From positions 186,001-250,000 of the forward strand of contig JAHHHZ010000024.1 in NCBI GenBank assembly GCA_019359095.1: a DNA stretch of 64,000 nt. Direction: 5' to 3'. The translations under genes and the position numbers were made by a program. Shown one piece after another: positions 7,915 through 58,644 of the stretch. Within the stretch, counting starts at the first letter, position 1. Each line of letters opens with the position of its first letter. The notes under the pieces were generated by a model. It had not been told where the DNA came from. It made no database searches and saw nothing but the letters and a program-made list of their open reading frames with translations. The stretch comes from Pleurocapsa minor HA4230-MV1 (GTDB lineage Bacteria > Cyanobacteriota > Cyanobacteriia > Cyanobacteriales > Xenococcaceae).

Positions 7915-9582
7915 ATGTTAAGAAGTCGAAGTATGCTCTGCCAAATGGCATCTATTATTGGTGCTTTATTGCTATTGGCATCAAATGGTGAAGCTATTGC
8001 CGAATCAAGGAATAAAGGTGATATTTCTCAGAAGCAAGATAAGATTAACTTGCCGAACAGCAGTCGTCAAGAATATTTTGTTAATAATTTAGAGCAGGAA
8101 AACTTGTCAACCAAGACAAATCCAAATTTAATTAGTCAAAACAACATTATCCAGCAATTTCAGGATATTCAACCAACAGATTGGTCATATCAAGCTCTAC
8201 AAAATTTAATTGAACGTTATGGCTGTATTAGTGGATTTAACGATCGCACTTTTCGCGGGGAACAAGCTATTTCCCGTGCTGAATTTTCCGCTGGTCTTAA
8301 CTCTTGTTTAAATAAGATTGAAAAAATAATTGCTCAGACCAAAAATGTACCCCAAATAGATATAGATACAGTTTTGCGCTTGATGCAGGAGTATCAGTCA
8401 GAATTAGCGATCCTTCAGGGTAGAACAGACGGTTCTCAGGCACGACTACTAGATTTAGAAGCGACACAATTCACTACCACTAGCAAACTACAGGGAGAAG
8501 CAATCTTGGGCTTAGGTAGTATTTTAGCTGGAGATAGCGATCGCACCAGTACAATTTTAGGTAGTCGTTTGAGGTTAGATTTTAAGACTAGTTTTCAGGG
8601 GGATGATCTATTATTTACCAGGTTATCGCAGAGTGATTTTTCGGGTTTTGCGTCGGAAATTGATACTTTTCAAGGCGGTTTGGCTTTTGCCGAACCTGAT
8701 AGTTCAGATGATTCTAATATACGTCTGGATACTTTACATTATTCCTTTAATCTTGGCGATCGCTTAGGTTTAATTGTCGGTGCAGCAGGGGTAGATGCTG
8801 ATGATATTGCCCCGTCAATCAACTTCTTAGATGGCGATGGCGGTTCAGGTGCAGTTTCTCGTTTTGGCACCAGAAATCCCCTTTACTATCCATCATCAGA
8901 TGCTGGATTAGGGGTTAATTATCGTCCGACTGAACAAGTTAAGATTGATGCGGGTTATCTTGCCTCCTCTGCTAATGAGTCAACCTCTGGCAACGGTTTA
9001 TTTAATGGCCCCTACAGCGCTTTAGGACAAATTACCCTAGAACCCTCTAAAAGCCTGAGTCTAGCTGCTACCTATATTCATAGCTACAACCAAAGCGATA
9101 CGGAAACAGGGACTAGTCAATCTAATTTGCGCTCGCAAACAGCAGTATTGTTTGGTGCAGAAGTTCCTACAGTTAGCAATTCCTATGGCTTAGAATTGTC
9201 TTGGGCAATTAGCGATCGCATCATTATCGGTGGCTGGGGTGGCTTGAGTAAAGTCAGAAACCTTGATACCTTAAACGAACAGATTGACCGTGGCACGCAA
9301 AACATTTGGAATTGGGCAGCAACTCTGGCAATACCAGACTTAGGGAAAGAAGGTAGCCTTGCAGGTATTGTAGTCGGCAGCGAACCTCAAGTGACCAATT
9401 CCACTATCGAAAATCTGCCAGAAGATAGTAGTTCTTTGCATTTAGAAGCTTTTTATCAATATCAGGTAAGTAATAATATTGCCATTACCCCTGGAGTAAT
9501 TTGGATTACCAAGCCAGATAGTAATACGCTAAATACTGATGACTTAGTAATTGGCACTGTTAGGACTACTTTTAGCTTTTAA
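7915..9582 (+). CDS. SLH-domain carbohydrate/iron-uptake type porin (OprB family)
   Basis: An outer membrane channel of the major cyanobacterial porin type. I start at ATG 7915, with GAGG about 10 bases upstream; a TTG 9 bases earlier is in frame. The 555-residue product has a signal peptide (about 1-30). A single SLH domain (about 80-130, with FQDIQPTDWSYQALQNLIER and SRAEFSAGL) would anchor to peptidoglycan-linked polymer. A short coiled coil follows (about 140-180). The rest is a long beta-barrel rich in Gly/Ser/aromatic strands ending in TFSF, the terminal Phe expected for BAM-inserted barrels. Confidence 0.9.
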   Translation: MLRSRSMLCQMASIIGALLLLASNGEAIAESRNKGDISQKQDKINLPNSSRQEYFVNNLEQENLSTKTNPNLISQNNIIQQFQDIQPTDWSYQALQNLIERYGCISGFNDRTFRGEQAISRAEFSAGLNSCLNKIEKIIAQTKNVPQIDIDTVLRLMQEYQSELAILQGRTDGSQARLLDLEATQFTTTSKLQGEAILGLGSILAGDSDRTSTILGSRLRLDFKTSFQGDDLLFTRLSQSDFSGFASEIDTFQGGLAFAEPDSSDDSNIRLDTLHYSFNLGDRLGLIVGAAGVDADDIAPSINFLDGDGGSGAVSRFGTRNPLYYPSSDAGLGVNYRPTEQVKIDAGYLASSANESTSGNGLFNGPYSALGQITLEPSKSLSLAATYIHSYNQSDTETGTSQSNLRSQTAVLFGAEVPTVSNSYGLELSWAISDRIIIGGWGGLSKVRNLDTLNEQIDRGTQNIWNWAATLAIPDLGKEGSLAGIVVGSEPQVTNSTIENLPEDSSSLHLEAFYQYQVSNNIAITPGVIWITKPDSNTLNTDDLVIGTVRTTFSF

Positions 9583-46047: not shown

Positions 46048-46073
46048 AAAATAAATTTCATATTTCCTTTTAA

Positions 46074-47282
46074 TTAATTATTGGCTTTAATCAGTTCATA
46101 AAACAAGATCCTCGTGGCTTTAAACAGAATTCTAATTAAGCTATCTTTACCTTTAACGGTTTTTCTCAGTTCTTGATAGCGATCGCTTAATTGTTTACCA
46201 ATGTCGTTGCCGATTAAATTCCCTTTACGAGATACCAGACAATAAGCCCAAGCGTAAAGGTGAGATCTAACCATCGAGTTACCGTGAAACTTGCGCTCAA
46301 AGCTTCCCCCTGACATGGAATAGCTAAAAGATAAGCCTAAACAAGCTTGGAACTTTCTTAAAGAGCGATCGCGCTTTTGGCGTTTACCTTTGCTAGTTTC
46401 ATATTCAATCCACGATTGACCATCTACTAAAAATTTATCGATTGGATAGAGATTAATCAACAAAATTGCCCTGCAAGAAGTGGCAAACTTAAAGCGATCA
46501 AACACTTGGTTATAAACATCAAACTGAGGTAGTGCAATTAAATTGTCAAGTTCTTCTAAATGCTTGCTATATCTAAGTTCTAAGTCAATAATTGTCTGAG
46601 AATGATGGCGCGTATAAGTGCTTATTTGTATGCCTAATTCTGGTGCAATAGAAAGCTTGTACTTATTGTCATATCTAAAATTGGAGTGGTTAAAAGCTAA
46701 CCAATAAATAATTGGCGTATAACCTTTTGTTGTCGATCGCGTCATGGTGTGACGTGCGATTTCAGGGAATTCATAGCTTAATCTCTGACGTAATTGTGAA
46801 ACTAAGTTGGTTCTTAGTTTTTGGAGCTGTTCTTTTTGATTAAATAACCCTCTAATTCTCATGATAGTTAGATCGTGGTTTAAATTGATAAACCGCTTTT
46901 GCCCGTGAATATTGACAAACTGTGGATCGAAATAACAAGCTGTCAGACACAAAGCATCTTCCTCATCACGTTTGTTAGTAAATCCATAATGGGAGCGTTG
47001 ACCAGACAAGTCTGTATGCCCGATCCAATAAATGAGAATGTCATATTTTTGTGCGACCATTACCCAAAATTGACTGTACCAATAGCCCGTTGGTTCTAAA
47101 ACTATACCCGTTGGCTTGAGGGATAGTAATTTCTCTACGCCCAATCTAGAACAATCGACTTTGTGGAATTGTTTGGTATTTTTTAGCTGTTTATAGCGCT
47201 GCTGAATGTTATCAGGAAATTCAGATATACAGCACAAAACAGCCGATCCGCGACCGACATCAAGCCCGATTATTCGATTCAT
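46074..47282 (-). CDS. IS110-family DEDD transposase
   Basis: The 402-residue protein has the RuvC-like N-terminal domain of IS110 recombinases: D8 in GLDVG, E63 in VLEPTGYW, and D106 and D109 in NKRDEEDA. A central coiled region (about 140-170) follows. The C-terminal Tnp_20-like domain is atypical: SYSMSGGSFERKFHGNSMVR (321-340) stands where the SG-x-KRGN-LR motif with the catalytic Ser is expected. A long spacer divides the two. The frame is intact. IS110 recombinases are guided by a bridge RNA coded next to the gene; the folded segment upstream is a candidate. Confidence 0.82.
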   Translation of the reverse strand: MNRIIGLDVGRGSAVLCCISEFPDNIQQRYKQLKNTKQFHKVDCSRLGVEKLLSLKPTGIVLEPTGYWYSQFWVMVAQKYDILIYWIGHTDLSGQRSHYGFTNKRDEEDALCLTACYFDPQFVNIHGQKRFINLNHDLTIMRIRGLFNQKEQLQKLRTNLVSQLRQRLSYEFPEIARHTMTRSTTKGYTPIIYWLAFNHSNFRYDNKYKLSIAPELGIQISTYTRHHSQTIIDLELRYSKHLEELDNLIALPQFDVYNQVFDRFKFATSCRAILLINLYPIDKFLVDGQSWIEYETSKGKRQKRDRSLRKFQACLGLSFSYSMSGGSFERKFHGNSMVRSHLYAWAYCLVSRKGNLIGNDIGKQLSDRYQELRKTVKGKDSLIRILFKATRILFYELIKANN

Positions 47283-47307
47283 GTATTATGGAAGTTAGAT
47301 AAAAAAT

Positions 47308-47385
47308 AAAAATCTCGGATGGCTTGTGAAACTCCCAAAGGTAAATTACCTTTTTCCTTTTATAAGCACTTTGTTCGAGATTTTT
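47308..47385 (-). ncRNA. Candidate structured RNA (bridge-RNA-like) in the IS110 5' end
   Basis: AAAAATCTCG (47308-47317) pairs perfectly with CGAGATTTTT (47376-47385), closing a 78-nt segment that has an inner palindrome AAAGGTAAATTACCTTT (47337-47353). This lies between the inverted repeat and the transposase start, where IS110-group bridge RNAs are coded. Guide loops cannot be checked without the target. A plain terminator against read-through is an alternative. Confidence 0.45.
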
Positions 47386-47507
47386 TAATGGGAATTTTGG
47401 CTTAGGAAATATGAAAGCACTGAGTTTAACTACTGGCTTATTTCTTAACGAAAGCCAATACATCCCATACAGGATAGGTTGGAATTACCCCGCGACTATA
47501 GTGATTA

Positions 47508-47735
47508 CTAAAGTTTCGATCGCTGTTCCAAAGCGATACTCATCAGGCGGTTAACTTCATTTTTGACTAAAACAATTGCTTGCTCGATATCATCTTCTGT
47601 ACCCACAAAAGTATTATCTGAATCGGCTACCTGAATAAAATAGCGATGTGTACCGTTACTTAAAGTGAGTGAACCACAGACTGTAAAAGGACTATCGGCA
47701 ATGCGAGCGCCGATCTGATATTTTGGTTCATTCAT
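47508..47735 (-). CDS. Small hypothetical protein
   Basis: From the second ATG (47735) the product has 75 residues; the first ATG (47741) adds two. It overlaps the end of the upstream gene, so the two are translationally coupled. It has a beta-rich middle (SPFTVCGSLTLSNGTHRYFI) and a C-terminal helix. I do not recognise it. It is the last gene of a three-gene leftward run that diverges from the HTH regulator gene. Confidence 0.6.
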   Translation of the reverse strand: MNEPKYQIGARIADSPFTVCGSLTLSNGTHRYFIQVADSDNTFVGTEDDIEQAIVLVKNEVNRLMSIALEQRSKL

Positions 47736-48000
47736 CAACAAAACTATCTTCCGAATTCATCATGTTGTTTATATATTCTATTTTTTGAGATGAGCTTAAA
47801 ACTACGCCATATTTTTGCTTCATCTGTTGATCTTTATATGCCCAAAATGTTTCAATGCCATAAGTATCAATAAATGAGCGCATTAACCAGTATGCACTAC
47901 GGGTATTTGTGGCAGTAACAAACGCCATCCAATCAGTAAGGCTTTCTGGTGGTATATTTTGAGATCTCAACTTATGTAAATCGTAAATAATTTCACTCAT
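47728..48000 (-). CDS. Small hypothetical protein
   Basis: The 90-residue helical protein contains LTDWMAFVTATNTRSAYWLMRSFIDTYG split over two helices and a charged C-terminus. It begins 3 bp after the stop of the 58-residue gene upstream and overlaps the next gene, so the run is tightly packed like a phage early operon. No family recognised. Confidence 0.6.
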   Translation of the reverse strand: MSEIIYDLHKLRSQNIPPESLTDWMAFVTATNTRSAYWLMRSFIDTYGIETFWAYKDQQMKQKYGVVLSSSQKIEYINNMMNSEDSFVDE

Positions 48001-48003
48001 GGT

Positions 48004-48180
48004 TTAAAAAGGTGGTTGGTCAGATTCAATACCCAAAGCTTGTTCTACTTTAGATTTTAGTGATGCGATCGCCACTGCTTCATCATCATTCTCATCTAGT
48101 TCTACCGATAGCTCAAGGCGTTCTGATTCATAGTTACCCAAGTTTTTTACTCGCTGGTAAGTTATTGTCTTAAATTTCAT
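48004..48180 (-). CDS. Very small hypothetical protein, first gene of leftward early-type run
   Basis: A 58-residue frame reads MKFKTITYQRVKNLGNYESE, then RLELSVELDENDDEAVAIAS and ends GIESDQPPF. The NLGNYES-x-L pattern resembles small accessory proteins seen in phage and plasmid operons. It is close upstream of the 90-residue gene and downstream of the divergent promoter region. Confidence 0.6.
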   Translation of the reverse strand: MKFKTITYQRVKNLGNYESERLELSVELDENDDEAVAIASLKSKVEQALGIESDQPPF

Positions 48181-48286
48181 TTAACTCCATAGCTTTGTCG
48201 CTAGCAATCATAAGAGACAATTAAAGGCATCAAGTGTTTCAAAATTCCCGTTCTGAGGACGCTTGGTGTTTTTTGTTGTCTCAATA

Positions 48287-48348
48287 CATGAAGTCTACCT
48301 CATCTAGTTTCAAAAAACAAGATGTTGACTTCATGAAGTTTACTTCAT
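48287..48348. promoter_or_regulatory. Operator cluster in the divergent control region
   Basis: A perfect palindrome ACTTCATGAAGT (48328-48339) is followed by a half site ACTTCAT (48342-48348) and preceded by CATGAAGTC (48287-48295). Their position between the small-gene run and the HTH gene is what is expected of repressor binding sites. The HTH protein is the natural candidate binder. Confidence 0.65.
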
Positions 48349-48353
48349 ATTAT
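48325..48353 (+). promoter_or_regulatory. Sigma70-type promoter of the HTH gene, embedded in operators
   Basis: TTGACT (48325-48330), a 17-bp spacer and TATTAT (48348-48353). The -10 overlaps the ATG at 48352, so a transcript from here would start downstream of that ATG and use the GTG at 48385 instead. Confidence 0.6.
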
Positions 48354-48597
48354 GAAAGATAATTCCAAAAAGGAAAAAACACCCGTGAGAGTATTTAGAG
48401 AAGAGCTAGGACTAACCCGTGTTGAGCTTGGTAGGCGTATAGGGCTATCTGAAAGAAGTCTTGCTGATATAGAACTAGGTAACTCTACTCCAAAGCTTGA
48501 AACGGTTGTTGCGCTTGCTCGTGAATGCAAAAAGTCTCTGAAGGTAATGATCAAAGCATTAGGAATTGATGTATCTGGTATTCCTGACGATGACTAA
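48352..48597 (+). CDS. Helix-turn-helix (XRE/Cro-CI type) regulator
   Basis: The 81-residue protein has a classic HTH: FREELGLTRVELGRRIGLSERSLADIELGNSTP covers helices 1-4 (about 14-47), with SLADIELG as the recognition part. It probably represses its own promoter and the divergent leftward run. The start may be GTG 48385 (70 residues, VRVFREEL), because AAGGA lies 10 bases before it and the promoter -10 overlaps the upstream ATG. It resembles a prophage or plasmid copy-control repressor. Confidence 0.8.
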   Translation: MKDNSKKEKTPVRVFREELGLTRVELGRRIGLSERSLADIELGNSTPKLETVVALARECKKSLKVMIKALGIDVSGIPDDD

Positions 48598-48598
48598 A

Positions 48599-48637
48599 AA
48601 CAGAGGCTCGTAAAATTCAAGCCTACGAGCCTCTGTT
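48599..48637. repeat. Strong 14-bp inverted repeat
   Basis: AACAGAGGCTCGTA and TACGAGCCTCTGTT flank an 11-nt loop directly after the HTH gene. A T5 run follows on the minus-strand side only, so it would work best as a terminator for leftward transcription. It may also hinder read-through from the HTH gene into the next gene. Confidence 0.7.
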
Positions 48638-48667
48638 AACCAATTCAATGTTGATTAAATAATAACA

Positions 48668-49390
48668 ATGACGTGGAATAAAAAAAACGATCAATTTGCC
48701 CTAGCCTGTGGGTTAACAAGACAATCAACGTTGCTAATGCTCCGTTGGATACTAAGAAGAGCCAAGCCTAACGAAGTAGGTGAAATCGAAATTGACTTAA
48801 GGATATTTAACGCTTGGGTAGCTAAAAATCGCGGTAGACCATTTGACCCCAAAACAATCCGTGAAGCGATCGCTCAACTAGACGAAAAAAGTCAAGGACT
48901 AGTTTTAATCACAAAATCTTACACTCCGTGGATTAAGAAAATTCTCGTCCGACCGCTAGAAAATGTGTTGCAGAATAATGCCCAAGAACAGGGAAAATAC
49001 CCCAAGCTGAAAACGTCCAAGCCTGTGTATAGCGATGCTTCAAAAGAAAAGCTCAATAGACTACTACAACATAATATATCTAAGCTTGCTGACCTATTGA
49101 GTAAGATCGGTCTTATCTATAACCACTGTTCCTTAAAGCGTATTTGGGCAATTGCTGGACAAAAATTTGATGAAATAGAGCGCGGTATTGAGCTAATGCT
49201 CTATCAAAACAGCATTAAACCTGGATCGATAACTAATCCTCAAGCATGGTTAATCAGTTGTTTAAAGAATAGATGGTTTGAATCATTCGATTTAAACTAC
49301 TCGCCAGATTTACCAAAATTTGAAAGCGTAAAAGAAATATCGCGCTTTGTCAGAGAAGTATTTCAAGGTGATAAATTATGTCCCGAATAA
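48668..49390 (+). CDS. Hypothetical protein, replication-initiator-like region
   Basis: I do not recognise the 240-residue protein with certainty. The N-terminal 100 residues look like a winged-helix domain (LACGLTRQSTLLMLRWILRR, then KTIREAIAQLDEKSQGLVLI). The middle is charged, and the C-terminal part has a helical IWAIAGQKFDEIERGIELM segment and NPQAWLISCLKNRWFE. That combination resembles plasmid/phage replication or DnaD-like primosome proteins, whose C-termini carry a similar NPxAWL..LKN motif. The role is inference. The next gene overlaps its end. Confidence 0.65.
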   Translation: MTWNKKNDQFALACGLTRQSTLLMLRWILRRAKPNEVGEIEIDLRIFNAWVAKNRGRPFDPKTIREAIAQLDEKSQGLVLITKSYTPWIKKILVRPLENVLQNNAQEQGKYPKLKTSKPVYSDASKEKLNRLLQHNISKLADLLSKIGLIYNHCSLKRIWAIAGQKFDEIERGIELMLYQNSIKPGSITNPQAWLISCLKNRWFESFDLNYSPDLPKFESVKEISRFVREVFQGDKLCPE

Positions 49391-49623
49391 GTAGCAAAGT
49401 ACCTGAACGTTATTTGGCAACAGCTAAAAAGCAAGCTATTAAGAGGATAAATCAAGGTGAGTATGTAAGCGCCTATGCTTACTTTGAATTTGCATTGTTT
49501 GAACATGAAGCGTTCAAGCATCATCTTCCACTAACAAAAGCGATGCTGATAGCCAAAGAACTACAATCTGGATTAACCCTAGACAAAAACGTTTTAATCG
49601 AACATATCAAAAAAGATTTTTAA
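49378..49623 (+). CDS. Small hypothetical protein
   Basis: The 81-residue mainly helical protein (KVPERYLATAKKQAIKRINQ, then YAYFEFALFEHEAFKHHLPL) overlaps the previous gene by 13 bp, which indicates coupled translation. Not recognised. It is followed by a 12-bp perfect palindrome. Confidence 0.6.
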   Translation: MSRISSKVPERYLATAKKQAIKRINQGEYVSAYAYFEFALFEHEAFKHHLPLTKAMLIAKELQSGLTLDKNVLIEHIKKDF

Positions 49624-49631
49624 CTAGTATT

Positions 49632-49657
49632 GGACTAGCAGACTTGTCTGCTAGTCC
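49632..49657. repeat. Perfect 12-bp palindrome with 2-nt loop
   Basis: GGACTAGCAGAC and GTCTGCTAGTCC. It lies between the 81-residue gene and the next gene, with no T tract, so it is not a standard terminator. A protein-binding site, a replication or nicking hairpin, or an RNA stop are options. Confidence 0.7.
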
Positions 49658-49674
49658 CCAATTGGAGCAAGCAT

Positions 49675-50034
49675 ATGTCAGAGCAATTGTGTCTCTTTAA
49701 GACTGATAGCGACAGCAATCCTGTGTCGCTATCAAATACTGATAGCGACATACAAACCAAGAAACAACAAGCGATCCAAAAATATCTAGACCGCGCGGTA
49801 GATAAAGAAACAACGGCTTGTGTGAGTAAATATTCTCCTGGTAAACGAAAAACAGAATACTATCGTTTGTCCTACCGCGTGGGATTAAAAATGAAACACA
49901 TCCACATCAAAGGAGGTAGTACCATCGCCGAGCTGGCAAATTACCGAGCCAATGTTTTACAGGCAATGATTGACCGTGGTGCAGAATTATCAGAGGTACT
50001 AGCAGCGGTCGCGACTTTTAATAGTGGTGGCTAA
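49675..50034 (+). CDS. Hypothetical protein of mobile-element type
   Basis: The 119-residue protein has a Ser/Asp-rich head (TDSDSNPVSLSNTDSDI). A basic domain follows, with SKYSPGKRKTEYYRLSYRVG and MKHIHIKGGSTIAELANYRA. Similar short proteins with YYR-YR-G...HIPGG occur in cyanobacterial plasmids and phages, possibly DNA-binding. The head codons are written in three copies of TGATAGCGACA. Its 3' end overlaps the leftward HTH gene by 36 bp. Confidence 0.6.
   Translation: MSEQLCLFKTDSDSNPVSLSNTDSDIQTKKQQAIQKYLDRAVDKETTACVSKYSPGKRKTEYYRLSYRVGLKMKHIHIKGGSTIAELANYRANVLQAMIDRGAELSEVLAAVATFNSGG
49704..49750. repeat. Triple TGATAGCGACA repeat inside a coding head
   Basis: TGATAGCGACA at 49704-49714 and 49740-49750, with the inverted copy TGTCGCTATCA at 49724-49734. 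Arms 1 and 2 can form an 11-bp hairpin. Spacing and orientation resemble an operator or small iteron set. Confidence 0.65.
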
Positions 50035-50268
50035 TCGATAGTGAATGATTTTGCGACTACTATTATTTGAGATTGTTAATCTGATTAATTTTTCCTCTAA
50101 GTAGCCGAGCTTAACCAAGTGTCGGCAATGAGTATGAATTACATTGACGTGTTGGTCTATCAGCTTAGACAAAGCTACAGCACTAATCCAATCTGGATTT
50201 AACGCAAAATAGTCTTTAATTTGCTCGCGGTTAAAGATGCCTATTTCTTGCGCGGTCATTTTATCCAT
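49999..50268 (-). CDS. Small winged-helix DNA-binding protein
   Basis: From ATG 50268 the product has 89 residues; the frame is open to 50304, but that overlaps the recombinase gene more. The segment ISAVALSKLIDQHVNVIHTHCRHLVKLGYLEEK fits a winged helix (helices plus wing). It lies directly downstream of the tyrosine recombinase on the same strand, so an excisionase or directionality-factor role is plausible. Alternatively it is a regulator of the leftward pair. Confidence 0.6.
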   Translation of the reverse strand: MDKMTAQEIGIFNREQIKDYFALNPDWISAVALSKLIDQHVNVIHTHCRHLVKLGYLEEKLIRLTISNNSSRKIIHYRLATTIKSRDRC

Positions 50269-50270
50269 AG

Positions 50271-50849
50271 CTAAATACTCAGCGTGGCGATCGCTCGCTT
50301 GCATTCACGCGGATCGTTATCGAGATAATGTCTCACGGTCTGAATGTTCATGCCCATGGTTTCAGCAATAGTGACAATTTCAATCCCTGACTTTCTCAAG
50401 CTATTAATCACCCAACGGCGCGAAGAATGAGTTGAGTAACCAGATAAACCAAGTTCATCAAAAATAGCTCTCCAATACTTATCAACCGCGCGTAAACTGA
50501 TATGCCCGATCTCACTATCTGAGGGAAATAAATAACCTACCTGTGACGCTGGCGTATAAGCTTCAAGATAAAACTTCAAATCTGGATGAACTGCTACTTG
50601 ACGGGTAGCAGCCAATCCATGTTTTGTGGCTTTTCTCGTAGTCGCTGCAAAGGTAATAGTATCAAGTACTTGACCATTTTTATCATACACATCACTCGCT
50701 TTTAACTGGACAATCGCGCCCATGCGTTCGCCCGTAAACAGCGAGATTTCAAAAATCAACCTTTGAGTCGGAGATTTGAGACGCGATCGCATTTGACGAA
50801 TAATTTGCGGTGTCCAGATAGCCGCTTGACCTTTGCCGTGATTTTTCAT
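50271..50849 (-). CDS. Tyrosine recombinase (single catalytic domain integrase)
   Basis: The 192-residue protein consists only of the catalytic domain. Arg42 is in LFTGERMGAIVQLKASDV, H141-x-x-R144 in STHSSRRWVINSLRKSG, and nucleophile Tyr175 in TVRHYLDND. The second His/Trp of the pentad is replaced (MGMNIQ where LGHSSI is usual). It lacks the core-binding and arm-binding domains of phage integrases, like integrases of some small elements. It is the best evidence that this region is an integrated element. A 14-bp inverted repeat lies 13 bp before its start. Confidence 0.85.
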   Translation of the reverse strand: MKNHGKGQAAIWTPQIIRQMRSRLKSPTQRLIFEISLFTGERMGAIVQLKASDVYDKNGQVLDTITFAATTRKATKHGLAATRQVAVHPDLKFYLEAYTPASQVGYLFPSDSEIGHISLRAVDKYWRAIFDELGLSGYSTHSSRRWVINSLRKSGIEIVTIAETMGMNIQTVRHYLDNDPRECKRAIATLSI

Positions 50850-50861
50850 CTTTAAAAAGAG

Positions 50862-50899
50862 GTACTGGAATTGTATTCAGATATCTACAATTCCAGTAC
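50862..50899. promoter_or_regulatory. 14-bp inverted repeat upstream of the recombinase gene
   Basis: GTACTGGAATTGTA and TACAATTCCAGTAC around a 10-nt centre. Further GTAC/AGTAC cores follow at about 50936, 50969 and 50990. It may be a recombination site (arms plus central spacer) or an operator for the recombinase gene. Confidence 0.6.
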
Positions 50900-51051
50900 T
50901 AGCAACCAATTAAAAGTAAATATAAGTGGCTCAATAGTACCTGTAGCAATGCTTATCGACATCAGTAAAGGTACTTGTTCTATGTAGAAGCAGTACTAAT
51001 TATTAATAGTTGAAATGGGCATAGTAGGAAAAATTAACTAATTTTCTACTT

Positions 51052-51426
51052 ATGGCAGATTTAACCCTAGCTCAAAGATTTGGTTCAAGCGTTGCTTTAA
51101 ATGCGACTACTAAAGTTCTCTCAATTGATTTAAATAACCTTACTACCATCACTATCGCTGGCGTTAACTACGGTCTAAATATTTCAGCTTTGACCGATGC
51201 CAATAAAAATGATTACGCTTCAAAAATCTTGTGGTCATTACTGCTTCTATCTCAAGCTAATCAACCCGCCGATAACAATGATGAGACGGTCAAGCTTTAT
51301 ATGACGAACCAAGGCAAGCGCAACATTACCCGCAATAGCGTAAACCAATTTGGCTATCAGCTATTGACGACCGCCTATCAAAACGATTCATTAGGCGTAA
51401 CTTTAGATCCTGATAATATCTCCTAA
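51052..51426 (+). CDS. Unknown protein, first gene of the overlapping cassette
   Basis: The 124-residue protein has no family I recognise. It starts MADLTLAQRFGSSVALNATT and has beta-strand-like hydrophobic alternation (KVLSIDLNNLTTITIAGVNYG). A helical YASKILWSLLLLSQANQ follows, and the end is acidic. There is no signal peptide. Its TAA stop shares the A with the ATG of the next gene (TAATG), so translation is coupled. The style is like small structural proteins of phages, but that is only an impression. Confidence 0.6.
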   Translation: MADLTLAQRFGSSVALNATTKVLSIDLNNLTTITIAGVNYGLNISALTDANKNDYASKILWSLLLLSQANQPADNNDETVKLYMTNQGKRNITRNSVNQFGYQLLTTAYQNDSLGVTLDPDNIS

Positions 51427-52442
51427 TGGGTAACTGGCACTGTGTATCTTCAAGTTGTGCTGAGGTGGTTTATCAACAGTATGAACCGCCTAGAATTCGC
51501 TGGCGCTACCCAGGAGAAGTTTGGAAAGAAATAATCGGTACTGATTATTTGATTAAAAAACAAAATTGGTATGGTGGTCAAAATCCAAATATTCAATATC
51601 AACTTAAGTATGGCCAAGCGATTACTAGTAGCTCTGGATTTTTTGGATGGAGTATTTATTACTCAAATCAATCAACATTAATAACTCCGCCTATCTCTAA
51701 TGTAAGATTAAATATTGCGGGTAACCTAACTGAAGTATTAGAACATTGGGCGTTTAGATCTATAGGCTCTGGAAATCCTCCACCAGATGGCAATAGGAAT
51801 CGCTCTTATTCTGTAGATGTTGTTGACGCATCAAATGAATGGAAAAGATGGCTTACCATTACTAGCTCTAGCGGATTGAAAGTGTACGGTTTTGAACCTG
51901 CCAACGGTTCAATAGAAGAAAATGCTGGTAGTAACAACTGTACTTTTACAGTTTATAAAAACGACACAATAGTCTATCAAGAAACTCGCGAATTCTGTCC
52001 TGAAGTTGAAAAAATACCTTGCAAACTTAGTGATGTTAGGCATTCAATCAAGATTGAAAAACTACCTTTTCTAGAAAAAGTTGAGGTAGTTCCTTATCAA
52101 TACAGCGTTTACCGCGCTCCTGGTATTCCTGCACCAATAGTTCAAGCCGATCAAATTCCTGCTGAATGCCTAAATATCTACAACAACGCTATTTATGTTA
52201 TTCCACCGTCTGGACAAGGTATATATCCTAACGCTACACCGTTTGATAGCTTTATTGCTCAAATCTGTTCATACCCTGGTTGCCCTGCTCCTGAATACAC
52301 CGTAATTTGTGATTGTCAGTGTCAATCTTGTCCTGATGGCACTTGTCCGATTGAATGTGACGATCATATCTGTTGCTACAACGACTATGGTGTAAGCGTT
52401 GCCCAGATTCCTCAAGCTGATTATTGCGGAGGGAATTCATGA
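51426..52442 (+). CDS. Unknown protein with cysteine-rich C-terminus
   Basis: The 338-residue protein is rich in Tyr, Trp, Ser and Asn and mostly beta. Its last 55 residues hold about a dozen Cys in CDCQCQSCPDGTC and CDDHICC-like clusters, suggesting disulphides or metal. Two Cys also sit near the N-terminus (WHCVSSSCAEVV). There is no signal peptide. It is joined to both neighbours by TAATG and ATGA overlaps. I see no homology. A surface or fibre-associated role next to the collagen-like protein is inference. Confidence 0.6.
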   Translation: MGNWHCVSSSCAEVVYQQYEPPRIRWRYPGEVWKEIIGTDYLIKKQNWYGGQNPNIQYQLKYGQAITSSSGFFGWSIYYSNQSTLITPPISNVRLNIAGNLTEVLEHWAFRSIGSGNPPPDGNRNRSYSVDVVDASNEWKRWLTITSSSGLKVYGFEPANGSIEENAGSNNCTFTVYKNDTIVYQETREFCPEVEKIPCKLSDVRHSIKIEKLPFLEKVEVVPYQYSVYRAPGIPAPIVQADQIPAECLNIYNNAIYVIPPSGQGIYPNATPFDSFIAQICSYPGCPAPEYTVICDCQCQSCPDGTCPIECDDHICCYNDYGVSVAQIPQADYCGGNS

Positions 52443-54112
52443 ATTGTGATAACCTTTGCACCGCTGCTAAATGCGAAGAACTTGAAAATCGTCTTAATGC
52501 TTTAGAAATTGCGCTAGAACTATTACAGGCATCGTTTGAAGCACATACAAATCAAGATATTCCCGAAGCGCATAACTATGAAGAGCCTGAAGTGACGGTT
52601 AGTCTAGCTGCTAGCGAAGATCGAGATTTAAAAGTCTTTGTAGCGGTTGGCTCAAAAAATGACAGCGAGACAATTAAACTACCAGAACCTGAAGTGACAG
52701 TTAGTTTAGCTGCTAGCGAAGATCGAGATTTAAAAGTCTTTGTAGCGGTTGGCTCAAAAAATGACAGCGAGACAATTAAACTACCAGAACCTGAAGTGAC
52801 AGTTAGTTTAGCTGCTAGCGAAGATCGAGATTTAAAAGTCTTTGTAGCGGTTGGCTCAAAAAATGACAGCGAAACAATTAAATTGCCTACTCAACCAATA
52901 GATTTTGATCCAGTCATTCCTTTTATATTAAATCGTCTCAAGTTAGAAATTAGACCTGAAATTGAAGCAGAAATTAAAGCAGAAATTGAAATAGCAATCG
53001 ATCAAAAATACCGCCCTTCTAACTTGAGACTTGATGGCAGTTTCCAGTCAGAGATGTTGATTTTAACTGTAGCTGATGGCGAAAGTCAAGATACGGCAAC
53101 TATTTCAATTCCTTTAGATGAACGTGACGGAATTGACGGACGTGACGGAATTGACGGAATTAACGGAGTTGATGGACGCGACGGAGTTGACGGAATTGAT
53201 GGAATTAACGGAGTTGATGGACGCGACGGAGTTGACGGAGTTGATGGAATTGACGGAATTGACGGAGTTGATGGACGTGATGGAATTGACGGACGAGATG
53301 GAATTGATGGACGCGACGGAATTGATGGTGCTGACGGACGAGATGGACGCGACGGAATTGATGGTGTTGACGGACGAGATGGACGCGACGGAATTGATGG
53401 TGGTGGAGGTATTGAGTATGACGGCTGTGGCATCGAACTAAGTTACAAAGACTCAGAGTTAACCGCATTACTTACCGTCGGACAATGTACTAGCAGCTCA
53501 AAAACTAAAATCATGGAATTTTCGCCGATTCAAGTAGAACGAATAACCTGTGTTAATGGCGTTGCCGAATCAGAATTTGTTGGCGTGGCAGTCATTAAAG
53601 GCACTGAAGCAGCCGAATTTGAGGCTTATACAGCACGTGCAGCAATTGCTCGAGCGCAGTGTGAATTAGAACCTGTAGCTGCTGTACCTGAATGGTGGCA
53701 GCTACGGCCTGAAGGGCATCGACCACAATTAATTGTGCATTTTGGCGAAAAAAAACCAGATGACAAAATAGGCAAGGCAATGTATGCCCTAACTATTCCT
53801 CATTGGTACGGATCGAAAGATGACGCTAAAAAGATTAAATTTGAGTGGCGTAAAGGTTCAGTCGAAGGAATATTAACCCTCAAAGACAACAGCAAAGTCA
53901 TTGTTAATGCTGTCTCCAAGTCAGAATGTGAAAGAATTCTAGGCATTGCCAAAAAAAGAATATCAGCGGCAATGTTAGTCGATAGCTTTACCAAAATTGG
54001 CGATCGCAAAGGACAACCTTTCAAACAAATTACAGTTAAGCCAAAAGTTGCTCGTTATTTTCCGACGGGAACTAAGTCGATGTTACCTGAATGGGTGGTA
54101 CAGCTTGATTAG
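52439..54112 (+). CDS. Collagen-like fibre protein with 34-residue tandem repeats
   Basis: Start at ATG 52439, because GGAGGG lies 6 bases upstream and the ATGA overlaps the previous stop. The 557-residue protein opens with a short Cys-bearing coiled coil. It continues with three near-identical 34-residue repeats (EPEVTVSLAASEDRDLKVFV and the following 14), then a charged helical stalk. About 95 residues of Gly-x-Asp triplets follow (GID, GRD, GVD, GIN), a collagen-like triple helix. Last is a globular C-terminal domain with PEWWQLRPEGHRPQ and WYGSKDDAKKIKF. Phage and surface fibres are built this way. The 53.1-53.4 kb DNA is a 9-bp quasi-repeat. Confidence 0.8.
   Translation: MNCDNLCTAAKCEELENRLNALEIALELLQASFEAHTNQDIPEAHNYEEPEVTVSLAASEDRDLKVFVAVGSKNDSETIKLPEPEVTVSLAASEDRDLKVFVAVGSKNDSETIKLPEPEVTVSLAASEDRDLKVFVAVGSKNDSETIKLPTQPIDFDPVIPFILNRLKLEIRPEIEAEIKAEIEIAIDQKYRPSNLRLDGSFQSEMLILTVADGESQDTATISIPLDERDGIDGRDGIDGINGVDGRDGVDGIDGINGVDGRDGVDGVDGIDGIDGVDGRDGIDGRDGIDGRDGIDGADGRDGRDGIDGVDGRDGRDGIDGGGGIEYDGCGIELSYKDSELTALLTVGQCTSSSKTKIMEFSPIQVERITCVNGVAESEFVGVAVIKGTEAAEFEAYTARAAIARAQCELEPVAAVPEWWQLRPEGHRPQLIVHFGEKKPDDKIGKAMYALTIPHWYGSKDDAKKIKFEWRKGSVEGILTLKDNSKVIVNAVSKSECERILGIAKKRISAAMLVDSFTKIGDRKGQPFKQITVKPKVARYFPTGTKSMLPEWVVQLD
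52583..52888 (+). repeat. Three tandem 102-bp repeats
   Basis: Units at 52583-52684, 52685-52786 and 52787-52888 keep the reading frame (34 codons each). They differ at only a handful of mostly synonymous bases, so the duplication is recent or kept uniform by recombination. Confidence 0.92.
53124..53405 (+). repeat. Collagen-coding 9-bp quasi-repeat tract
   Basis: Continuous triplets GACGGAATT, GATGGACGC, GACGGAGTT and similar code for Gly-x-Asp units. The other frames are also open here as a by-product of the 9-bp period. Confidence 0.9.
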
Positions 54113-54302
54113 CCATAACATTAAATCCAAATACGATTACGATCTTGATGAATACTTTGTAAAGTATGCAGTACCATTGACTGAAGCAATCGACAAGCTT
54201 AATTATTCGCGTTCGACTTTAATTCGCAAAATTAGAATGCATCGCTTACACGGCTTTAAATGTAAGGGTAAATGGTATGTAATAATTTTCCCAACCAAAT
54301 AG
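54105..54302 (+). CDS. Small helix-turn-helix (excisionase-like) protein
   Basis: From TTG 54105 the product has 65 residues. VPLTEAIDKLNYSRSTLIRK, then IRMHRLHGFKCKGKWYV, is the MerR/excisionase-type HTH plus wing. The frame is open much further upstream, but only inside the fibre gene in another phase. GGGTGG lies 7 bases before this TTG, and it overlaps the fibre stop by 8 bp. It may control the cassette or act in excision. Confidence 0.6.
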   Translation: MISHNIKSKYDYDLDEYFVKYAVPLTEAIDKLNYSRSTLIRKIRMHRLHGFKCKGKWYVIIFPTK

Positions 54303-54416
54303 TTAAGAGTGCCATAACGTCAGTGCCTTAAGCCCCAACCGTCGAAAGCGTTTACAGTTGGTTAATACAGCAGTTAGAAAAGTGTGACGACTTAATCAAC
54401 ATATCTAACAATCAAT

Positions 54417-54911
54417 ATGACTGTTTTTACCCCTGGCACTGGCACGATCCAAGCCAGTACATATGAAGCTGCTGCTTTAGTAGCTGCTCAAATGCTTCAA
54501 GACCTTGAAGGCACTGATGTTAATAACATTGCAGTTAACTACTTTACTGGTGATAACGTGGTGCAAATTCAATGGGCTGCACCAATCGCCACAAGTTTAG
54601 TAGCTGGCAAACTGGAAATTGCTTCTGTTGACTATATAACTTATGGCGGGTTCGTATCAGGAAACAGTCTTAGTGCGACTGGATTACCTGCTGCTCTATT
54701 AGAGATTTTTCAAAACTTGCAAGAATTAGAAAAAGTTCAACAAGATCCAGAAAATCCTGATGTTTTAAACAGAGTCCAAATTTCTATCGATCTTGACGCT
54801 CTTACGGCAACTGTTAACGCTGAATTACCCATTAGTTTTACTGCTAGCAATGGCGCGGTACAAATTTCTGCTGTTGCTTATTTAGCAGATCGAGTAGTAC
54901 AGGAGGGATAA
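54417..54911 (+). CDS. Unknown protein of the cassette
   Basis: The 164-residue protein starts MTVFTPGTGTIQASTYEAAA and is rich in Ala, Val and Thr. It has beta-like segments (VVQIQWAAPIATSLVAG) and an acidic helical ELEKVQQDPENPD middle. No signal peptide and no recognised family. Position and composition suit a small structural protein. The next gene starts 4 bp after its stop. Confidence 0.6.
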   Translation: MTVFTPGTGTIQASTYEAAALVAAQMLQDLEGTDVNNIAVNYFTGDNVVQIQWAAPIATSLVAGKLEIASVDYITYGGFVSGNSLSATGLPAALLEIFQNLQELEKVQQDPENPDVLNRVQISIDLDALTATVNAELPISFTASNGAVQISAVAYLADRVVQEG

Positions 54912-54915
54912 TAAC

Positions 54916-55390
54916 ATGGCTATTGTAAAATCTGTCGGCGATCCTTTGGGTAAAGATAATGAACCTGGATCTGACGCTAATGTAGACGTTAAAGAATACG
55001 TCAAATATATTGTTGAATCGACTAAGCATTGGTTTTATGCACCAAAAAATAAATACAAGGATATTGCTAAATCTTTGGGATTGAAAGAAGTCGATCCTAA
55101 TTCCGCAAAAGGCGAAGAATCAACTAAGTTAGCTAACGGATATGGTTACATTCGTCTAAAAGCAAGGTTGAAAAATGGTGCAACCATGTCTTTAATTTGC
55201 GATCCTGAAAAAGTTGGCTCAGCTATAACTACTGCTAAAAGCGCAGGTGCAGCATCTAAAAAGATTTATGGTGTTGCTGTCTGGTGTGAGAGGCAATTTT
55301 TACAAGATCACTCCTTTTGAAGTGACTACCAATCAAGGTGCGGTGCGGGGTGATTTTGGTGTTCATTTGGATGCTAATGCTCCAGGTTAA
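54916..55390 (+). CDS. Unknown protein with an apparent +1 frameshift
   Basis: The frame from ATG 54916 ends at a TGA at 55318-55320 (134 residues). In the +1 frame a sensible C-terminus continues from about 55271 (VRGNFYKITPFEVTTNQGAV, then RGDFGVHLDANAPG) to TAA 55390. The two frames join best around 55270-55290, after KKIYGV. The last 13 residues of the short form (WCERQFLQDHSF) look like out-of-frame filler. A base error, a recent mutation or programmed frameshifting are all possible. The N-terminal part is lysine-rich and soluble, with YGYIRLKARLKNG. Confidence 0.6.
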
Positions 55391-55405
55391 CTTGGTTGTA
55401 TTGTC

Positions 55406-55504
55406 ATGGATTGGCACAATTTTAAAGATTTTGAAGCGCAAATTTGGACTCTTAGAGACAAGGAAAAAGTTCAACAAATACCCTTACATGCCTTTTATAG
55501 CTAA
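55406..55504 (+). CDS. Tiny ORF coupled to the next gene
   Basis: A 32-residue frame reads MDWHNFKDFEAQIWTLRDKE and ends VQQIPLHAFYS. Its TAA overlaps the ATG of the membrane-protein gene (TAATG), the same junction as at 51426. That repeated junction and the sensible composition support it as translated. Confidence 0.5.
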   Translation: MDWHNFKDFEAQIWTLRDKEKVQQIPLHAFYS

Positions 55505-55806
55505 TGTTGAAAAATTATAACGTGCCAGATCTAGCTTGGAAATTTACCAGTTTTGGTTTTATGTTGTTTTTGGCTGGAGCTGGCTGGTCTATTTCCCAAG
55601 CTAAAGTTTATGAGCTGCAACTAGCTAATTACAAGCTGGCAGTAGGATTAGCGATCAACGATGTAGCCGCAGCGTCAACAGCGTTAAAAGATGCTGCTAA
55701 ATCTTTGCCTCCCAAGCAACAAAAAAAGATTCAGGCTCTTACTGATGAGGCTAATGAAAAACTAGAAATTGTGGCTGATGAGTTAGACCCATTATTAATT
55801 GAGTAA
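55504..55806 (+). CDS. Small membrane-anchored protein, holin- or spanin-like
   Basis: The 100-residue protein has one N-terminal membrane helix (about 13-31, FTSFGFMLFLAGAGWSI) and then a long charged helix (LQLANYKLAVGLAINDVAAA to the end). An inner-membrane-anchored coiled coil at the end of the run is the shape of an i-spanin or holin accessory. I see no lysin gene, so lysis is inference. It is the last gene of the cassette. Confidence 0.6.
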   Translation: MLKNYNVPDLAWKFTSFGFMLFLAGAGWSISQAKVYELQLANYKLAVGLAINDVAAASTALKDAAKSLPPKQQKKIQALTDEANEKLEIVADELDPLLIE

Positions 55807-55901
55807 CAAGCATTATCTTGGGGTTTCTTAACACTTAATTATATTTTAAGGACAAAAATGCTCTGTTGCTTTGCAATTTGGCAATTATCTAAGGATCTGC
55901 A

Positions 55902-56891: not shown

Positions 56892-56946
56892 GCGTGGAGA
56901 TATAGCAATACTAGACAATGTTAGGTCGTTTTTGTACTACTACCTA

Positions 56947-58644
56947 CTAACCACTACCATCGATCGATAATCTAGAAGGATAGTCACCCCCTGAATGAAT
57001 CTTGATGGTAATGATGCCATGATCGATCTGACGAGATTCATGAGGTAATTTGCCATCGCCTGAATTGAGAGGATAAGCTGGAAAACAAGCTCCACTGAGA
57101 CTAAGACGTAAGCGATCGCCTGCTGGAATATACATACAGGTTGGTTGTAGGGGGATTTTGAGTGAGTCGATCTGAGAATTTGGCGCAACTACTCGAATAT
57201 AGCCCTGAGTAAAGTTAAATACTGCTCCATTTGGATTTACTGTAGATAAGACGGCACAGATGTCAAAGCTAGGATTATTAGTCGTGTAGTAGATTTCTAA
57301 GGTTATTGTTCCTGTTAGATGTAAATCTGATTCTAAAGCGGGGGAGGTGTAGGTCAGAATATCGGCACGACAGTCTAAAAGCGATCGCTCAAAAGAGCCA
57401 CTAGGATAGGTAGCATGTCCCCCTAATGCGGGTACTGGTCGCCCAGGATCGTGAACTAAAATATCTGTATTGTTGTCAAATTCAGTAACTATCTCGCCCA
57501 GATCGGTAACGATTAGTTCTTGAGGAGAAGGATTGGCAAACTCTTCGTATTGCCACAACATGCCACTATCTTCTCTGACACCAGCTAAACCATCACTCGC
57601 TAGGTAAAAGGTGGTTTGCTCGCTAGGTAAACTATTAAACTCTCGCCAGCTATTGCTGCCCATTTCAAATAGACAGATAGTTGATTCTTCTAGTAATCCT
57701 GTATCAATGTCTTTTAACCAGTGATCGAACCAGCGCACTTGAATTTCGTCAATTGGGTTTTGCGCTTCCACACCATAGTTCACCTCACCCAATTTACTAC
57801 CCCAGGGAAGATGCGCCCAAGGCCCGATTAAGAGATGCTGGGGTTGGCTACATTGAGCAATCATTGCCTGATAAAGATTCATTGTTCCCCGAAGATAGGG
57901 ATCGAACCATCCCCCAACATGAAGCATTGGCAGATCTACCCGATCTAACCAATATTTTGGCGATCGCTTTTGCCAATATTCAGCAGTAGCATCAGGATTA
58001 TGCAACCATTGATGATAAAAGGAGTCGGGAGCTAATTCTTGCATTAACTCAGGATTAGCAGCAATAGAGCCATTTAAGGGCAGATTATGGGATGCTGCTT
58101 TGAGTTTTAAATAGGCTGCTTCATCTCCTTTAAGGCGCGCCGTTTCGACTGCCAGTTGAATTGCCCAGGCAAGATTAGCCCATAAACAAAAAGCACCGTT
58201 TTCATAAGCCCAATCGCTGTGTAGATCGTAGGCTACCATTGCTGGGGCGATCGCTTTTAAACAGGCTGGCTGATGGGCAGCGGTATACAGCTGAGTCATA
58301 CCCTGATAGGAAAAACCATACATCCCGACTTTGCCAGTGCTGTACGGTAAGCTTGACACCCAGTTAATCGTATCTAAGCCATCGGCAACTTCATGGGTAA
58401 AAAGATCGAACTCTCCTTGTGATGTTCCTCTTCCTCGTACGTCTTGAATGACGACAATGTATCCCTGGGCTGCATACCAACGGGGATGAGCATAGACCAC
58501 CGTTGAGGCGATTTCTCGACCATAGGGTTGACGCATCAAAAGCACTGGCAGCTTTTCTGGCGTATCAGGACGATAAATATCTGCATCCAGCCTCACGTTG
58601 TCGCGAGTCAGCATTGATACTGTCTGTTTGCTAATTTTGACCAT
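56947..58644 (-). CDS. CocE/NonD family (S15-type) hydrolase
   Basis: The 565-residue protein has the alpha/beta-hydrolase core with nucleophile Ser112 in GMYGFSYQG. It also has the oxyanion-region DVRGRGTSQG (68-77) and a C-terminal jelly-roll domain (about 330-560), as in cocaine esterase and X-Pro dipeptidyl peptidases. GPWAHLPWGS carries the likely catalytic His. No signal peptide, so cytoplasmic. Substrate (ester or acyl-peptide) cannot be told. It overlaps cobM by 14 bp and is the third gene of the lgt-cobM run. Confidence 0.88.
   Translation of the reverse strand: MVKISKQTVSMLTRDNVRLDADIYRPDTPEKLPVLLMRQPYGREIASTVVYAHPRWYAAQGYIVVIQDVRGRGTSQGEFDLFTHEVADGLDTINWVSSLPYSTGKVGMYGFSYQGMTQLYTAAHQPACLKAIAPAMVAYDLHSDWAYENGAFCLWANLAWAIQLAVETARLKGDEAAYLKLKAASHNLPLNGSIAANPELMQELAPDSFYHQWLHNPDATAEYWQKRSPKYWLDRVDLPMLHVGGWFDPYLRGTMNLYQAMIAQCSQPQHLLIGPWAHLPWGSKLGEVNYGVEAQNPIDEIQVRWFDHWLKDIDTGLLEESTICLFEMGSNSWREFNSLPSEQTTFYLASDGLAGVREDSGMLWQYEEFANPSPQELIVTDLGEIVTEFDNNTDILVHDPGRPVPALGGHATYPSGSFERSLLDCRADILTYTSPALESDLHLTGTITLEIYYTTNNPSFDICAVLSTVNPNGAVFNFTQGYIRVVAPNSQIDSLKIPLQPTCMYIPAGDRLRLSLSGACFPAYPLNSGDGKLPHESRQIDHGIITIKIHSGGDYPSRLSIDGSG

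Follow-up and report, generated by a model that had tools for sequence, protein, structure and literature searches.

The window analyzed here is a 64,000-nucleotide (nt) stretch of the 5.64-Mb genome of the cyanobacterium Pleurocapsa minor HA4230-MV1 (genome G000, contig C24, positions 186001 to 250000), and it carries an inserted element of 9,757 bp at 46067-55823, bounded by TTTC on both sides. Within these limits lie an IS110-family transposase gene, a noncoding region that resembles a bridge RNA, a hammerhead ribozyme motif, a divergent regulator region, and a packed chain of rightward genes that includes a collagen-like protein. An initial annotation, made from the letters of the window, had proposed an accessory element without recognizable hallmark genes at 47508-55806, perhaps a phage satellite or an integrative element. 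An integrative element of this description is indeed present, as indicated by the empty sites, its patchy occurrence, and the copies found on plasmids; the annotated extent missed the left 1.4 kb, and the inventory overlooked the mover (the transposase), the guide RNA, and the ribozyme.

The boundaries were taken from two congeners (G016 and G017) in which the site is uninterrupted. Homology to the window runs to a TTTC at 46063-46066, the left target core, and resumes at a TTTC at 55824-55827, the right target core, placing the start of the element at 46067 and its terminal ...TTGGGG at 55823. The insert is absent from a third congener (G021) as well, with less exact homology. Inside the left end, the transposase stop codon lies 7 bases from the boundary, and right ends of the form TGGGG/NTTC were found in 7 of 12 loci picked by transposase similarity. 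Core genes were rejected as an explanation, given the empty sites and the sporadic presence of the island; the gene at 54417, for instance, occurs in 3 of 27 genomes of the family, its own included. In silico, this comparison shows that the transposase and the island were inserted as a single unit with a 4-bp core.

The transposase gene (46074-47282, leftward) encodes a DEDD enzyme that matched NF051857 (transpos_IS110_2) at 362 bits against a cut-off of 180. Residues D8, E63, D106, D109, and S324, which we take to be catalytic, were invariant in nine of nine aligned relatives. The 12 loci picked by transposase similarity have conserved noncoding blocks in common upstream of the transposase. 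In the window, the corresponding RNA body occupies 47283-47493 on the same strand, 211 nt past the predicted ribozyme cut, and its minimum free energy fold contains two large stem-loops. Three words in it match the insertion site or the element: a left-target guide, TTTCATATTTC (47406-47416, leftward), identical to the left target over 11 nt; a right-target guide (47441-47449, leftward), complementary over 9 nt to TTTCTTAAC in the right target; and a donor guide (47353-47362, leftward), complementary over 10 nt to the left element end TTTCCTTTTA.

We compared these matches with chance by taking the longest word common to each RNA and each target at seven loci and scoring all 5,040 permutations of the pairing. 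The ends of these loci had been set without reference to the guides, by the empty site for the window, by tandem copies for a Calothrix locus (L121), and for the other five by an end motif learnt from the window and Calothrix ends; one of the seven (L177) joined the set after the first guide comparison. The RNAs paired with their own targets gave sums of 62 on the left (permutation mean, 45.1) and 62 on the right (mean, 40.4), and on each side the own pairing was the sole maximum of all permutations. The individual scores, left plus right, were 11+9 for the window, 10+9 for L121, 7+9 for L097, 8+9 for L104, 10+11 for L095, 8+5 for L135, and 8+10 for L177. Two loci with a right end only were kept outside the test: L050, whose right guide matched over 9 nt, and L169. 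We dropped a second transposase match in L039, a fragment in L102, and, in L097, a further right-end motif at position 7941; L101 and L050 represent one plasmid, and L121 overlaps L123. The donor guide of the window matched its own left end over 10 nt and six other left ends over 4 to 6 nt. Left-end complements of 8 or 9 nt in five other loci are nonspecific, since those ends are mutually similar, and in L095, where the donor loop is missing from the extract used, the complement was 5 nt.

On this comparison the window RNA behaves as a bridge RNA, and the element appears to choose its insertion site by its own guide RNA. RNA-guided insertion is thus well supported in silico, with the recombination activity itself presumed. 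A few results pull in the other direction: the right-end donor guide of the window matches over 5 nt, which is not above mismatched pairs, the right flank of L135 does not match its own guide (5 nt), L169 has a poor guide match by eye, and a few guide-target pairs that do not belong together reach 9 to 10 nt.

The 5' end of the RNA region reads CCUGAUGAG-stem-CGAAAC-stem-GUCGCGG, the pattern of a type I hammerhead ribozyme (47490-47550, leftward), with the CUGANGA, GAAA, and UH core and three helices present and a predicted cut between 47494 and 47493. Judged by fixed anchors, the core is present in 22 of 23 upstream regions (11 of the 12 transposase-chosen loci and all 11 motif-fetched loci), the exception being L014, which has a variant motif. 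A pattern search gave 16 matches in 13 of 195 genomes, against none for the reversed pattern. Fourteen of the 16 precede an IS110 transposase (12 of 14 newly fetched loci, the window, and L037), and at the remaining two the contig stops within 1 kb; 11 of the 14 newly fetched loci also hold genes of the structural families described below. A strict scan of the loci returned 13 matches and none in their reversed sequences (1.53 Mb), and the hammerhead finder likewise found nothing in 1.81 Mb of reversed sequence. Across 20 distinct sequences the core is kept and stems II and III vary by compensation, a count in which the finder had itself demanded part of the pairs; the finder missed the window copy (stem III mismatch), which we counted by hand.

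The motif could instead be a conserved fold of the bridge RNA 5' end with no ribozyme activity. Consistent with such a fold, and to that extent unfavorable to a ribozyme, the window copy has one mismatch in stem III and scores 13.3 bits against the Rfam gathering score of 48.5 for Hammerhead_3, the six relatives searched (of 11) gave no Rfam hit at the gathering score, and when no pairing is demanded at the fixed anchors the number of sequences that pair at a given stem position ranges from 14 to 22 of 22. Since the catalytic core letters are kept and the stems compensate, we regard an inactive fold as unlikely, and the predicted hammerhead seems to cut the guide RNA free.

The motif also occurs in viral sequence collections. 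At least 120 stretches in IMG/VR match the hammerhead motif alone, and among 80 IMG/VR hammerhead loci one (L245, IMGVR_UViG_3300035633_001189) also has the transposase. That contig encodes a major head protein (phrog_283, 4e-50) and has a scaffold match, so a tailed-phage contig has the same hammerhead-IS110 pair. Two other IMG/VR loci (L198 and L253) each have four hammerhead patterns clustered in a few kb on a single viral contig, resembling the multiples described in Perreault 2011 (PMC3088659).

Upstream of the ribozyme lie three small leftward genes: 47508-47741, whose 3' end overlaps the ribozyme and which has a relative in L037 (39% identical over 51 amino acids); 47728-48000, an open reading frame (ORF) call; and 48004-48180, with a relative in L014. 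Together with the ribozyme, the bridge RNA, and the transposase, these genes run leftward from the divergent regulator region, which on its other side begins with an Xre-type regulator (48352-48597, rightward; HTH_3, 1.6e-11). Two conserved rightward genes follow, E (48668-49390; a family of 16 ORFs among the loci) and G (49675-50034; 21 ORFs). Gene E, which had been called replication-like, has no known-family match in PHROGs or Pfam to support that label, though it is conserved in relatives. A single-domain tyrosine recombinase (50271-50849, leftward) consists of the catalytic domain only (PF00589, 2.6e-10; phrog_216, 3.8e-23) and is 73% identical to its counterpart in L037. The regulator, this recombinase, and the collagen-like protein had all been described correctly by the initial annotation.

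The chain to the right begins with J (51052-51426), a small structural-type protein from a family of 82 ORFs (window member, 5.3e-16). K (51426-52442) has a Cys-rich C terminus and the same position as the K proteins of relatives; the family profile does not recover it, and it has one short match, in L016 only. The next gene (52439-54112) encodes a collagen-like shaft, L (PF01391, 3.9e-13), joined to a conserved C-terminal domain (CTD). An HTH_17-like match at 53997-54302 (E 0.0042) is weak and under the cut-off. N (54417-54911) is a tandem-domain protein, O (54916-55320) is a second small structural-type protein, and P (55504-55806) is a coiled-coil protein with a hydrophobic stretch that is weakly spanin-like (phrog_2466, E 0.0071) and whose relatives adjoin an M15 peptidase gene in L014 and L037. 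All of these genes run rightward. The packed junctions noted earlier are as described, with TAATG at 51424-51428 and 55502-55506 and an ATGA at 52439-52442 that overlaps the preceding stop. The seven genes annotated between 51052 and 55806 are there, and between 54916 and 55504 the annotation had overlooked a broken transpeptidase-like gene (55229-55501, rightward), split by an in-frame stop at 55388-55390, whose two pieces match a family built here at 3.1e-19 and 4.9e-8; the family is weakly Tlde1/YkuD-like, under Pfam cut-offs. The other chain proteins gave no confident family in PHROGs or Pfam. L038 relatives of J (predicted local distance difference test score [pLDDT], 94.8) and of the CTD (pLDDT, 88.1) were modeled, and neither model had a PDB match at E 0.001.

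Related modules are sporadic. The CTD is found in 16 of 195 genomes of the order, the present genome included, and in 11 of 94 genera; across the phylum its profile matched 20 of 386 genomes, several in the N-terminal part only. A J profile found 40 loci in named genomes, 39 labeled cyanobacterial and one a proteobacterial metagenome-assembled genome (MAG); some of the other genomes compared are MAGs as well. Copies lie on chromosomes and plasmids, one of them on a 178-kb plasmid, and an episomal form exists as the 15.6-kb plasmid pHT582-2, which has ParA/ParB and an integrase and whose J match is partial. A common gene order recurs among relatives, with losses and swaps: regulator, E, G, reversed tyrosine recombinase, one to three copies of J, a variable protein, K, L, CTD, N and/or O, W, wall enzyme, and spanin-like protein. 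No W gene was found in the window by profile. The wall enzyme differs among relatives, being an M15 peptidase (in one, PF08291 at 7.3e-13 and endolysin phrog_894 at 3.6e-24), a GH10 protein (8.6e-72), or the weakly Tlde1/YkuD-like protein. The GH10 (xylanase-type) gene lies in or adjoining the module in L039 (7168-8097) and L041 (2407-3351), perhaps in the role of wall enzyme. Some relatives have VapE/DUF3854 or AAA_25/Toprim replication proteins, as in L106 and L107, distant relatives in which such primase-helicase genes lie beside the structural genes.

In Calothrix FI2-JRJ7 (JAHHGX010000010; L121/L123), two tandem copies of 15,393 bp are 100% identical and have the same type of ends; this tandem, coming from a MAG, could be a concatemer or an assembly effect, which lessens its value for our interpretation. 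The genome of the window itself holds a second related element (L167, contig C23, around 45936) that runs on past the 20 kb fetched and shares long blocks of 73 to 85% identity; its ribozyme differs from that of the window by one base and its guides are different, and inspection by eye gives it a left target word of its own (8 of 9) and a donor word (8 nt). Both full-length members of the transposase subfamily in this genome sit in such elements, and C33 carries a third, partial copy that scores over the cut-off.

One alternative is that an ordinary IS110 insertion sequence landed beside an unrelated integrated island that is moved by the tyrosine recombinase. Phage-type tyrosine recombinases are present in the window and many relatives (a family of 33 ORFs among the loci), and among the 23 module loci whose first J or K gene has 9.5 kb or more of sequence in front of it, 8 have the ribozyme, 11 a transposase-family match, 12 either, and 11 neither (L121 and L123 overlap in this count, and the window ribozyme was counted by hand). 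Both facts speak for that explanation, and module loci with neither feature may integrate otherwise, perhaps via the tyrosine recombinase. However, the empty site shows a single insert, with a 4-bp core, that contains both the transposase and the island, the RNA guides match both outer flanks 9.8 kb apart, and the same arrangement recurs in relatives. We therefore consider a chance neighbor very improbable.

What the rightward chain makes is harder to read from known viruses. Among the 18 window proteins searched in PHROGs and Pfam, no terminase, portal, major capsid protein, or packaging ATPase had a credible match, which counts against a virus-like particle. The side matches were weak or driven by repeats: small-terminase PHROGs 7067 (E 0.0014) and 51 (0.16) to the tyrosine recombinase C terminus, "virion structural" PHROG 38766 (2.3e-7) through the collagen repeat, PHROG 19200 (0.13), and, in the K protein of a relative, a large-terminase PHROG at E 0.079. 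An ordinary tailed prophage was rejected on these grounds. Filamentous phages with IS110/Piv-type recombinases are viruses that use an IS110-like enzyme, and they have a Zot-like ATPase; in contrast, no Zot-like morphogenesis ATPase, an inovirus trait, was found among the same 18 proteins. The CTD had no match in 50,697 phage records, and the IMG/VR scans returned no relative of K, CTD, or J. The element is a member of an apparently undescribed family; in the searches made, most particle-type genes of this family had no known-virus match. A particle encoded by the chain is plausible because the M15 protein of one relative is endolysin-like and other relatives carry other wall enzymes.

Two other products of the chain were weighed. 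Were the element a phage satellite, it would integrate in the same way, J to P would be tail or adhesion parts, and a helper would give the capsid and packaging. The missing capsid and packaging genes, the collagen and tail-fiber-like matches, and the primase-helicases and wall enzymes of relatives all suit a satellite, yet no helper or packaging signal is known (neither was searched for), and the CTD had no match in the phage records, nor the CTD and J in the IMG/VR scans; we consider a satellite possible and on balance doubtful. The collagen-like and helical shaft proteins, again with no packaging genes found, would equally suit a cell-surface or contact structure that carries no DNA. Against this stand the endolysin-like M15 and other wall enzymes of relatives, some of them with spanin-like proteins, together with the sporadic distribution and the episomal form, and such a structure seems to us distinctly unlikely.

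We consider it likely that the element is temperate and virus-like, integrating by RNA-guided recombination with a ribozyme-processed guide and making a lysis-released particle of no recognized type. Leftward transcription from the divergent regulator region would yield an RNA with the three small genes, the hammerhead, the bridge RNA, and the transposase, and the predicted hammerhead cut would release the bridge RNA from the genes that precede it. Pairing would then join the target loop of the bridge RNA to the host site ...TTTCATA-TTTC-TTAAC... and the donor loop to the element end, and recombination at the 4-bp core would insert the circular element. Between the bridge RNA and the far end of the element lie about 8.3 kb of other genes, so the ribozyme may supply the RNA 5' end. 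By analogy with relatives, the rightward genes (J-K-L/CTD-N-O-P) would encode the parts of an adhesive particle, and the wall enzyme and spanin-like protein would release it; in the window copy the wall-enzyme-like gene is broken. More tentatively, and with less conviction than for the element itself, such elements could form a new cyanobacterial virus group with structural proteins of unrecognized fold and RNA-guided integration, in which hammerhead release of the bridge RNA from a lysogeny-regulated transcript would make the choice of target changeable by swapping two short guides. The interpretation in the initial annotation, of a small particle, secreted structure, or surface organelle encoded by a mobile element, is partly supported.

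Known IS110 members are simple insertion sequences with the RNA in the left end, beside the transposase, and bridge RNAs are known so far from tiny insertion sequences. The element resembles the IS110/IS621 bridge-RNA recombinases, as far as these are described in the available portions of Durrant 2024 (PMC11208160), in having a DEDD transposase, an RNA encoded upstream of the transposase gene, guides for target and donor, and a short core; it differs in the genes between the RNA and the far end and in the hammerhead motif that precedes the RNA. In the available portions of Siddiquee 2024 (PMC11187229), the seekRNA of IS1111/IS110 is similar in that RNA words match both target strands and cargo between the ends is experimentally movable, whereas no natural virus-like cargo is noted and the ribozyme is an added hepatitis delta virus (HDV) one. 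The word hammerhead is absent from both papers. Bacterial hammerheads near prophage integrases (PMC3088659) share the motif type and the mobile-element context, but the part of that paper available notes no link to guide RNAs or IS110 and leaves the function open. Charybdis elements (PMC12324425, available in part) are likewise mobile elements without hallmark genes that have a putative structural module; they differ in their size of ~4.6 kb, their marine archaeal hosts, and, in the portion available, the lack of any mention of a guide RNA. Among the literature matches listed, we saw none that connects hammerheads to IS110 or to bridge RNA, or that describes bridge RNA in a virus-like element; PMC12643982 and PMC4524478 contain both terms, in passages unrelated to such a joining.

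If our reading is correct, a natural unit that moves about 10 to 15 kb of virus-like genes to guide-set sites, with the RNA 5' end defined by a ribozyme, would show RNA-guided integration serving a virus. Some of the hammerheads linked to prophages, left without an assigned role in Perreault 2011, would thereby gain a function, and natural large-cargo IS110 systems would become available for study. The structural module is widespread in cyanobacteria, and neither the phage records searched nor the IMG/VR scans gave a match to it; it is a candidate for a new type of particle. Outside the element, a repeat of ~60 bp at about 56900-56958 of the window recurs at many positions in the genome.

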